A stretch of 64,000 bases of DNA, taken from contig JAUQWZ010000024.1 in the NCBI GenBank assembly GCA_030834905.1, positions 248,001 through 312,000 of the forward strand, given 5' to 3'. The stretch is from Aggregatilineales bacterium. GTDB taxonomy: Bacteria; Chloroflexota; Anaerolineae; Aggregatilineales; Phototrophicaceae. Shown here one piece after another: positions 31,158-34,949 of the stretch. Below the pieces are notes generated by a model. That model made no database searches. It worked only from the letters and a program-made list of their open reading frames with translations, and was not told the origin of the DNA. The position numbers and the translations under genes were made by a program. Numbering within the stretch: the stretch's first letter is position 1; each line of letters starts with the position of its first letter.

Positions 31158-33797
31158 TTAGCGGGTGGTGGCGCTGTCTAAGGCGCTTAGGCGCTCGGCA
31201 ATCTGAGTGACGCTGGCTTGCAGATCGGCGAGTTTGGTGCGTTCGCGTTCGATCACCTCCGGTCGCGCCCGCGCCATAAACTGGTCGTTGCCCAACATGC
31301 CCTGTGACCGGGCGATCTGGTCTTGCAGTTTGGTCTGCTCTTTCGTCAGGCGCTCGCGTTCGGCTTGCAGATCAACAAAGTCCGCCAGTGGCAGATAGAG
31401 GGTGATATCGCCTGCCACCACCGAAGCGACCTGCGCGGGGATTTCCTCGCCAGCATCCAGCAGCCGCAGCGCCGAGACATTACACAGCCGCGAGAACAGA
31501 TAAGCGTAGCCCTCGATCAGATGCTCGCTGTCGCTGCGCGCCGCCAGCGCGGTGATCCTGCGCGCAGGCTCGACGCTGTACTCGTCGCGCACGTTGCGCA
31601 CGCCGCGCACCAGATCGATCAGCAGCAGCATGTCGCGCTCGGCATTGTCGTCATAGTAGCGCTCGTCTGGCTGGGGCCACGCCGCCATGATCAGGGCTTG
31701 TCCTTCGTGCGGCAGATAGCTCCAGATCTCCTCAGTCACAAACGGCATGTACGGATGCAGCAGCCGCAGGCTGGTATCCAGCACGTGCAGCAGCACGCGC
31801 CGCGCCGCCGTCTTTTCGGCACCGGTGCCCTGATACAGCGGGTGTTTGCTCACTTCGATGTACCAATCGGCAAAGTCGCCCCACAGAAAGTCGTCAAGCT
31901 GGCGACCGGCTTCACCGTACTGATAGGTTTCAAACAGCCGCTGGACTGTACTCACCAGCCGGTTGAGGCGGCTGAGAATCCAGCGCGAAGGCAGATCGAG
32001 TTCATTGGGCGGGGGCGCGCCCGGCGGCAGGCTCTCGGCATCCTCGCCCAGATTCTGGGTGACGAAGTTCGACATCTGCCAAATCTTGTTGACGAAGCGC
32101 CAGTTGCGCTCGACACGATCAGCGTCGAGGTTAATGTCATTGCCGGGCGTGCTCCCGGTCACCAGCGTAAAGCGCAGCGGATCGGCGCCGTATTTATCGA
32201 CCAGTTCCAGCGGATCGATGACGTTGCCCAGCGTCTTGCTGATCTTGCGCCCGTTTTTGTCACGCACTAACCCATGCAGATACACCGTCCTGAACGGCAC
32301 GTCGTCGGTGAACCACAGCCCAAGCATGATCATACGCGCCACCCAGAAGAACAGGATATCGTAGCCTGTCTCCATGATGGTGGTCGGGTAGTAGCGCGCC
32401 AGATCGGGCGTTTGTTCGGGCCAGCCCAGCGTGCTGAAGGGCCACAAGCCGCTGCTGAACCAGGTATCGAGCACATCTTCTTCGGGCGTCCAGCCGTCGC
32501 CTTTGGGCGCGGTCTTGCCGACATAGATCTCGCCGTCGGGTCCATACCATACCGGGATGCGATGCCCCCACCACAACTGGCGGCTGATACACCAGTCTTC
32601 GATGTTCTCCAGCCAGTGGAAATAGATCTTCTCGAAGCGTTCGGGCACGATTTCGATGCGCCCGTCGCGCACCGCTTCCAGAGCCTGTTCCGCCAGTGGC
32701 TTGATCCTGAGGAACCACTGATCGCTGACCATCGGCTCGACGACTTCGCCACCACGCTGCGTGCGCGGCACGACCATGGTGTGATCCTGCGCCCGGATGG
32801 TCAGTCCGGCGGCGGTCATATCCGTCCACAGCTTCTGCCGCGCCTCGAAGCGATCCAGACCGTCATACGGACCGGCGTTTTCGTTGAGGGTGGCGTCCTT
32901 GTTCATGATGTTGATGAGCTGCAGGTTGTGCCGCTTGCCGATCTCGTAGTCGTTGAAGTCGTGTCCCGGCGTGATTTTGACCGCGCCCGTGCCAAACTCT
33001 CGATCCACGTACTCGTCGGCAATCACCGGAATCCGGCGGTTGAGCACCGGCACCAGCGCCATTTTGCCGATCAGGTGTTGGTAGCGCGGGTCTTCCGGGT
33101 GAACCGCCAGCGCCGTATCGCCGAGGATGGTTTCCGGTCGCGTGGTCGCCACCGGGATAAATTCGCCGCCTTCAATCGGATAGTTGAAGAAGTACAGTTT
33201 GCCGGTTTCTTCCTCGCGCTCCACTTCAAGATCTGAGACAGCCGTCCGCAGACCGGGACTCCAGTTCACGAGACGCGGTCCACGGTAGATCAGTCCCTGT
33301 TCGTAGAGACGCATGAAGACTTCCAGCACCGCGTTCGATAAGCCTTCGTCAAGCGTAAAGCGCTCGCGATCCCAGTCGCAGCTTGCGCCGAGGCGTCGAA
33401 GCTGGCGGTTGATCTCGCCGCCGTATTTTTCCTTCCAATCCCAGGTGCGGGCGAGAAACGCCTCGCGCCCGATTTCTTCGCGGCTGGTGCCTTCTTCATG
33501 CAGCATCTTCTCGATCTGAAGCTGGGTAGCAATTCCGGCGTGATCCATGCCCGGCACCCACAGCGCCGCTCTGCCGTTCATGCGGGCATGGCGGATCATC
33601 AGGTCTTCCAGCGTGCTGAACAGCGCGTGACCCACATGCAGCGCGCCGGTCACATTAGGGGGTGGCATACTGATGACGAAGGGTTCGGCATCCGGTGGCG
33701 CGGCTTCCGGCTTAAACCAACCGCTGCTCTGCCACCAGTTATAAAGCCGTCCTTCGGCTTCGCTAAAGTCAAACGTCCTGGGCATCGTCCTGAGCAT
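31158..33797 (-). CDS. valS: Valyl-tRNA synthetase
   Basis: PPPNVTGALHVGHAL (HIGH-type), NGRKISKTLGNVIDP (KMSKS-type). Confidence 0.97.
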   Translation of the reverse strand: MLRTMPRTFDFSEAEGRLYNWWQSSGWFKPEAAPPDAEPFVISMPPPNVTGALHVGHALFSTLEDLMIRHARMNGRAALWVPGMDHAGIATQLQIEKMLHEEGTSREEIGREAFLARTWDWKEKYGGEINRQLRRLGASCDWDRERFTLDEGLSNAVLEVFMRLYEQGLIYRGPRLVNWSPGLRTAVSDLEVEREEETGKLYFFNYPIEGGEFIPVATTRPETILGDTALAVHPEDPRYQHLIGKMALVPVLNRRIPVIADEYVDREFGTGAVKITPGHDFNDYEIGKRHNLQLINIMNKDATLNENAGPYDGLDRFEARQKLWTDMTAAGLTIRAQDHTMVVPRTQRGGEVVEPMVSDQWFLRIKPLAEQALEAVRDGRIEIVPERFEKIYFHWLENIEDWCISRQLWWGHRIPVWYGPDGEIYVGKTAPKGDGWTPEEDVLDTWFSSGLWPFSTLGWPEQTPDLARYYPTTIMETGYDILFFWVARMIMLGLWFTDDVPFRTVYLHGLVRDKNGRKISKTLGNVIDPLELVDKYGADPLRFTLVTGSTPGNDINLDADRVERNWRFVNKIWQMSNFVTQNLGEDAESLPPGAPPPNELDLPSRWILSRLNRLVSTVQRLFETYQYGEAGRQLDDFLWGDFADWYIEVSKHPLYQGTGAEKTAARRVLLHVLDTSLRLLHPYMPFVTEEIWSYLPHEGQALIMAAWPQPDERYYDDNAERDMLLLIDLVRGVRNVRDEYSVEPARRITALAARSDSEHLIEGYAYLFSRLCNVSALRLLDAGEEIPAQVASVVAGDITLYLPLADFVDLQAERERLTKEQTKLQDQIARSQGMLGNDQFMARARPEVIERERTKLADLQASVTQIAERLSALDSATTR

Positions 33798-33800
33798 GTT

Positions 33801-34634
33801 CTATCCTCGTTTTCCGTTCTTCTGTCCATCTTGTCGCAGCCATGACGGCGGGTGTTTGATTGCCAGCGGTTTGCGCGCTACCAGAATGCGCTCCGTCCGA
33901 TCAAAAGTATCGGCGATTTCCTCAAAGCCAATTTCCAGCAGGACAACCTTGACCTCGTCGGTCGAAAGCGGGCGGAAGACGACGCTGCGCTTGATCGCGC
34001 CGTAATGTTCGCCCTGTCCCTTGACGATAAACAGGTTACAGGTGGCGATCACCGGGGGACCGTCTTCCCATTCCCAGGTTTCAAAAGTAATGTGCTCGCC
34101 GCCGCCGGGAATCGCATGGATGAAGCCAGGCAGGAAGCGCGGGCGGTCTTCCATGAACTGTCCGAAGTCGCGCATCCCGATGACGAGCGTGCCGCCCGGG
34201 CGAAGCAGCTCGAAGAAGATCAGCAGCGTGGTTTCGATTTCGTCGTCGGTGAGCAAATGGGGCAGGGAATTGCCTTTGGTGATGACCGCATCAAAGGGAC
34301 CGGTTACCACGTCGAAAAGGTGAATGAAGTCGCCGCGAAAGAACTCGATCTTGTCGTCCACGCCGCAGGCTGCCGCGATCTCCTGCGCCTTGCGCAGCAT
34401 ACCGATGCTTGGATCGACCGCGAAGACTTCAAAGCCAAGCTGCGCCAGTGGAATCGCCTGGGCACCCGCGCCGCACGAAGCATCCAGGACGCGCAGCACG
34501 CCGCGATTGCGAAAGATGGTGCGCAGTCCGAGTCCTTCTCGCTCCATCTGGGTTTCCCAGTCCCGATAGAACAAAGTGTACGATTCAGCGATGGCGTCGT
34601 AGAAGTCGTTGGTTTCTTCGGTACTGGTCTGCAT
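33801..34634 (-). CDS. Class I SAM-dependent methyltransferase between T-box and valS
   Basis: VLRVLDASCGAGAQAIPLAQLGFEVFAVDPS; RBS GGAGG ahead of ATG 34634. Confidence 0.88.
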   Translation of the reverse strand: MQTSTEETNDFYDAIAESYTLFYRDWETQMEREGLGLRTIFRNRGVLRVLDASCGAGAQAIPLAQLGFEVFAVDPSIGMLRKAQEIAAACGVDDKIEFFRGDFIHLFDVVTGPFDAVITKGNSLPHLLTDDEIETTLLIFFELLRPGGTLVIGMRDFGQFMEDRPRFLPGFIHAIPGGGEHITFETWEWEDGPPVIATCNLFIVKGQGEHYGAIKRSVVFRPLSTDEVKVVLLEIGFEEIADTFDRTERILVARKPLAIKHPPSWLRQDGQKNGKRG

Positions 34635-34655
34635 CGCGAGCCTCCTGAACGAATC

Positions 34656-34687
34656 AAAAACCCCTCTTGACACAAGGACGAGAGGGG
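34656..34687 (-). terminator. Intrinsic terminator of the T-box leader
   Basis: Minus strand CCCCTCT...AGAGGGG then TTTTT. Confidence 0.88.
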
Positions 34688-34913
34688 CTGCCTTCGCGGT
34701 ACCACCTTGATTCTGGGAATGCCACGCATTCCATCAGCGCTCTGACGCGATAACGGGCGTACCCGACCTCACTTCAGGCGAAGCGTTCGGCGAGGCAACT
34801 CCTGGGCGACCTTCGGCAGCTACTGCGAGTGGGCTTCCAGCCCTCGACCCACACTCTCTCGCGCAGGGAAGCTGCGTACTCCTCCCATTCATCGTTGTTA
34901 CGAATTTCCAATT
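34656..34913 (-). ncRNA. T-box leader (predicted tRNA-Val responsive) controlling methyltransferase-valS
   Basis: Minus strand AACGATGAATGGGAGGAGTACG...GCGAGAGAGTGTGGG...GAAG-GTC-GCCCAGGAG...AAGGTGGTACCGCG, then terminator. Confidence 0.92.
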
Positions 34914-34919
34914 AGATTG

Positions 34920-34949
34920 AGTATAGCATCGTCCGCTAAATGCCGTCAA
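34920..34949 (-). promoter_or_regulatory. Sigma70-type promoter for the T-box transcript
   Basis: Minus strand TTGACG (34949-34944), 18 nt, TATACT (34925-34920). Confidence 0.8.

Follow-up and report, generated by a model that had tools for sequence, protein, structure and literature searches.

Valine-type T-box leader preceding a methyltransferase gene and valS in an Aggregatilineales bacterium

A T-box leader upstream of a methyltransferase gene and valS

The leader that precedes a methyltransferase gene and valS on the minus strand of the window (the whole 64-kb stretch of DNA analysed) is almost certainly a transcriptional, long-Stem-I T-box riboswitch specific for tRNA-Val(GAC) and controlling both genes. 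The RNA family match, the structure, the specifier, the cognate tRNA, the bases common to the antiterminator and terminator, and the gene order were all observed. The leader and operon features described below lie on the minus strand.

Searching the window with Infernal and Rfam 15 gave a full-length match to the T-box family RF00230 at 34901-34671, with model positions 1-219 complete. Its score of 105.3 bits (gathering score 93) and E value of 3.3e-22 for 64 kb exclude chance as an explanation of the match. The only further RNA-family match in the window was tRNA-Thr(CGT) at 35820-35749. The T-box identity put forward in the original prediction was thereby upheld by the covariance model, and the minus-strand motifs quoted there were all found in place: AACGATGAATGGGAGGAGTACG, GCGAGAGAG, GAAG-GTC-GCCCAGGAG (GTC at 34810-34808), AAGGTGGTACCGCG, TTGACG-18-TATACT and CCCCTCT/AGAGGGG-TTTTT (34687-34656). 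The TTGACG-18-TATACT element is a promoter-like site at 34920-34949, with TG before the -10 hexamer and 10/12 matches in the scan; it is a sequence match, one of two such sites found compared with 0.3 expected by shuffling.

Leader secondary structure

RNAalifold recovered the canonical T-box architecture from the alignment without a supplied structure: Stem I with its specifier loop, Stems II, IIA/B and III, and an antiterminator with a 7-nt bulge. Stem I (34797-34896) contains the AGUA-box side of the specifier loop (34883-34876) together with AG-rich and distal loop motifs, and its helices show compensatory changes. All seven pairs of Stem II (GCCUCGC/GUGAGGU, 34766-34796) have changed on both sides. 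The Stem IIA/B region (CGGG/CCCG, 34754-34765) was taken from the alignment-derived structure. Stem III was misplaced for the window row by the alignment fold, and the perfect 7-bp hairpin GGAAUGC-GUG-GCAUUCC of the single-sequence fold (34716-34732) was taken in its stead.

Compensatory changes were observed in 32/44 pairs of the alignment-derived structure. Paired cells amounted to 93.2%, compared with 75.0% in shuffled alignments, which do not control for relatedness, and 38-43% with partners slid, a control that does so and gives much lower pairing, though slid controls tend to be exceeded in any case by a structure taken from the same alignment. Cells changed on both sides numbered 285 versus 88 after shuffling, and the covariation score was 0.531 versus 0.196. 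The single-sequence folding energy of the leader is ordinary (z about -1 against shuffles); support for the structure therefore comes from covariation and the match to the family rather than from stability. The specifier loop is absent from the single-sequence fold of the isolated leader.

Specifier and cognate tRNA

The specifier triplet GUC (Val) occupies 34808-34810 on the 3' side of the Stem I specifier loop. As aligned to the Rfam model, this side of the internal loop reads GAAG-GUC-G, followed by CCCAGGAG. GUC is present in 49/49 Val leaders compared (two of these, L068 and L069, were read separately), and it forms invariant columns in a 33-row alignment, corresponding to columns 92-94 of the window row. 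The specifier loop exceeds three bases and T-boxes with shifted specifier frames are known (PMC7778990), leaving room for a genuine T-box that reads GGU (Gly, frame -1) or UCG (Ser, frame +1). Among the relatives, however, the base before GUC may be A, C, G or U, as may the base after it, while GUC itself is constant, which excludes frames -1 and +1; the GUC frame alone is conserved, and every intact case has valS downstream. A reading of either neighboring triplet is accordingly extremely improbable.

The valine assignment was also approached through the spacing of the specifier, using a rule (triplet, 6 nt, GAG) calibrated on T-boxes before genes of known amino acid. In the source genome the rule yields UGG before trpE (L002) and trpS (L003) and UUC before pheS (L004), these targets having been named by eye from translations and not by family search. 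Among relatives, the triplet that it picks out is UGG where trp genes follow and GUC where methyltransferase-valS or valS follows. The strict GAG anchor missed or misread the specifier in ten leaders in which the anchor is shifted or changed (L035, L037, L038, L041, L054, L065, L067, L072, L073 and L095); reading of the sequences and Rfam alignments showed GUC in all ten. The original prediction had placed a Val specifier at 34810-34808 on the strength of a consensus spacing. That spacing was borne out by the UGG and UUC readings in the source genome, and structure modelling puts GUC, and no non-Val codon, in the Stem I specifier loop.

The source genome encodes a tRNA-Val with anticodon GAC and discriminator A. 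This tRNA is complementary to GUC and, by its 3' end, to the UGGU of the antiterminator bulge (34704-34701). The tRNA survey of this genome gave 45 matches, of which all but 15 lower-scoring ones were taken as separate loci.

The other T-boxes of the source genome show some features of their own. The bulge of the trpS T-box is UGGU though the discriminator of tRNA-Trp is G (wobble), and that of the trpE T-box is UGGC; a UGGU/UGGC mix has been noted for Trp T-boxes (PMC7778990). The Stem II loop of both the trpS and the pheS T-box is interrupted by a purine/pyrimidine inverted repeat built from AAGTAAAAAGT-type units. In the source genome 49 occurrences of the unit pattern were counted, compared with 0 for the reversed control; this is a dispersed palindromic repeat, and T-boxes tolerate its insertion.

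Antiterminator, terminator and proposed mechanism

The antiterminator (34673-34709), as defined by the fold and alignment, consists of helix A1 (CAAGG/CCUUG), the 7-nt bulge UGGUACC (34704-34698) that would receive the 3' end of the tRNA, and helix A2. The base of A2 is a G-U pair (34697-34678), and a G-U pair at the start of A2 has been described for T-box discriminators (PMC7583486). The intrinsic terminator (34656-34689) was located from the sequence, the fold and relatives. It comprises CCCCUCU (34687-34681), a 13-nt loop, AGAGGGG (34667-34661) and the tract UUUUU (34660-34656). By sequence and fold, bases 34681-34685 are common to both structures.

A simple terminator scan with a loop limit of 3-8 nt reported no terminator for the leader, because the 13-nt loop exceeds this limit. 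The CCCCTCT/AGAGGGG-TTTTT terminator that had been proposed is present, and a hairpin of the same type with a U-tract was found in 44/49 Val leaders. These have 40 different 5' arms, indicating that the hairpin is conserved by compensation. In most relatives an upper stem is also paired (CGUC with GACG-like bases); this pairing is lost in the window copy, leaving the 13-nt loop. Such a loss at the terminator apex, together with one relative (L070) that is wholly without a T-box, would suit a decayed element that is still recognisable but no longer switches, with valS expressed constitutively from the promoter. Decay is nevertheless very unlikely given that all domains, the specifier, the bulge, the 7-bp terminator core and the U-tract are intact and that the RF00230 score exceeds the gathering cut-off.

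For the functional T-box, tRNA-dependent switching and its direction would be those of the known T-box family. When valine is scarce, uncharged tRNA-Val(GAC) is predicted to pair with the leader at two points: its anticodon with the GUC at 34810-34808, and its 3'-terminal ACCA with the UGGU of the antiterminator bulge (34704-34701). The docked tRNA would stabilise the antiterminator (34709-34673). As this structure takes up 34681-34685, which the terminator also requires, transcription would run on into the methyltransferase gene and valS. With charged tRNA-Val the 3' end could not dock; the CCCCUCU/AGAGGGG hairpin and U-tract would then form and transcription would stop.

Operon genes and identity of the methyltransferase

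A Shine-Dalgarno-like AGGAGG (34641-34646) lies 6 nt before the ATG at 34634 of the first gene, which encodes a class I SAM-dependent methyltransferase of 277 aa (33801-34634; Pfam Methyltransf_25, 1e-15) with a GNMT/GSMT-like model. The first ATG of valS (31158-33797; valine--tRNA ligase, 879 aa) is 3 nt past the methyltransferase stop. ValS scored above the curated cut-offs of both NF004349 (1178 versus 704 bits) and TIGR00422 (1065 versus 612 bits). The predicted methyltransferase-valS operon is in agreement with these assignments, the downstream genes being a Methyltransf_25 methyltransferase and a bona fide valS. Downstream of valS, two neighboring genes on the minus strand (30709-28272) encode LysM-domain proteins and are convergent with mutL.

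The AlphaFold2 model of the methyltransferase, calculated with 12 homologues, has a Rossmann core and a beta lid (pLDDT 88). The nearest structures are P. horikoshii 1WZN and the N-methyltransferases of the glycine and glycine-sarcosine type (TM 0.6-0.8, about 20-25% identity); the glycine sarcosine and glycine enzymes (5GWX, 1KIA) share the class I fold with a beta lid, at TM-scores of 0.6-0.75 and about 25% identity. The glycine/sarcosine enzymes are also its best sequence relatives, with the similarity confined to residues 12-162. That activity was not assigned, because the protein fails the equivalog cut-off of NF051855 by a wide margin (74 versus 350 bits). The tRNA1(Val) m6A37 methyltransferase TrmN6 was considered as well. 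Adenine-N6 methyltransferases carry the catalytic motif (N/D)PP(Y/F/W) in motif IV; the corresponding region here reads TKGNSLPHL, without that motif, and TrmN6 is absent from the NCBIfam matches of the protein. The TrmN6 identity was accordingly rejected.

Distribution among Anaerolineae

When 84,980 species genomes were scanned with the methyltransferase alignment, 44 loci were identified, almost all of them listed under Chloroflexota/Anaerolineae and one in a MAG labelled Pleurocapsa. All 43 loci that reach far enough have valS downstream, with one extra gene between in L098. A Val T-box lies upstream in 41 of the 44; L102 and L105 start inside the methyltransferase gene at a contig edge, and L070 is truly without a T-box, its uridine kinase gene running into the methyltransferase gene and then valS. 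L070 is an apparent natural loss of the switch, and T-box control is dispensable there. The order T-box, methyltransferase, valS, with a methyltransferase of the window clade, occurs in about 40 Anaerolineae genomes of several families.

Upstream of the Val T-box, as in the window, there is often a uridine kinase gene and, where examined, tRNA-Thr(CGT). In four relatives (L035, L037, L038 and L041) the intervening uridine kinase gene of the window is absent, and tRNA-Thr(CGT) is separated by just some tens of bases from the Val T-box that follows it; the two may be co-transcribed there.

T-boxes were found in 61/61 relatives of the source genome. Sixteen Val leaders were inspected, that of the source genome included, and 12 precede the methyltransferase gene while 4 precede valS directly. 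Across 100 genomes of the class, a match to the methyltransferase profile within about 1.5 kb upstream of valS on the same strand was observed in 12. Twenty regions upstream of valS were fetched, 8 of them chosen for such a profile match, and 19/20 contained a T-box match, one of them weak (L115, 35 bits). With a T-box in 19/20 regions and a methyltransferase in several families, T-box-valS is the common state in the class and the intervening methyltransferase is recurrent.

The intervening genes are not all alike. In family f40 the methyltransferases align with that of the window from end to end (226 columns); in f17 and f27 the alignment is limited to the Rossmann core. In the tree, the f17, f27 and f21 proteins fall on a separate long branch, so that three further families of the sample have a different methyltransferase subfamily in the same T-box/valS slot. 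With the exception of unlinked paralogues, one of which is in the source genome (L129), the window clade is monophyletic (support 99/95). The slot also holds other genes: a membrane protein gene in L125 and, in L123 from another Anaerolineae family, a DinB-like gene identified by eye.

Relation of the methyltransferase to valS

T-box control of the operon is compatible with a methyltransferase that has no functional tie to valine or ValRS, the gene order reflecting the age of the operon. We lean slightly toward this reading: 4/16 inspected Val leaders precede valS directly, DinB-like and membrane proteins fill the slot elsewhere, which lessens the support for a functional link, and no further operon member points to a pathway. 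It accounts less readily for a clade that has stayed beside valS in about 40 genomes of several families, or for a second methyltransferase subfamily in the same slot in f17, f21 and f27. A dedicated partner of valyl-tRNA synthetase or of valine metabolism in Anaerolineae, induced with valS by uncharged tRNA-Val, is a more tentative suggestion. If it were true, two distinct methyltransferase subfamilies in one slot would point to an undescribed methylation step linked to valine or tRNA-Val. The conserved methyltransferase, the expression of which should follow tRNA-Val charging, provides a functional lead.

Comparison with known T-boxes

The original type of the transcriptional long-Stem-I T-box is that of B. 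subtilis tyrS. The window leader shares with the RF00230 transcriptional type the Stem I specifier loop, Stems II, IIA/B and III, a 7-nt bulge starting UGGN, and an antiterminator exclusive with an intrinsic terminator. It differs in its long-looped terminator, and in its lineage the specifier is sometimes followed by a pyrimidine instead of a purine (GUCC and GUCU in L066 and L072). Specifiers ending in C are the favoured type (PMC7778990), and GUC is one of these.

T-box control of ileS, leuS and valS is the most widespread (PMC2494555), and the taxonomic distribution of T-boxes has been covered elsewhere (PMC3766115). A search of the literature, excluding TBDB and RegPrecise, found nothing on T-boxes with Anaerolineae or on an operon of valyl-tRNA synthetase and a methyltransferase. 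In the same phylum, T-boxes have been reported for Dehalococcoides ileS, trpE and trpB-like genes (PMC2494555). trpE is T-box-controlled in the source genome too, whereas the valS, trpS and pheS targets are not in that list. The Val T-box before valS is also found in Firmicutes, but the window has a methyltransferase gene between the leader and valS. T-boxes in Chloroflexi and T-box control of valS are thus known, and the intervening methyltransferase is the less expected feature. Val T-box control of valS is confirmed as widespread in Anaerolineae, outside the Firmicutes in which the mechanism has mostly been studied.
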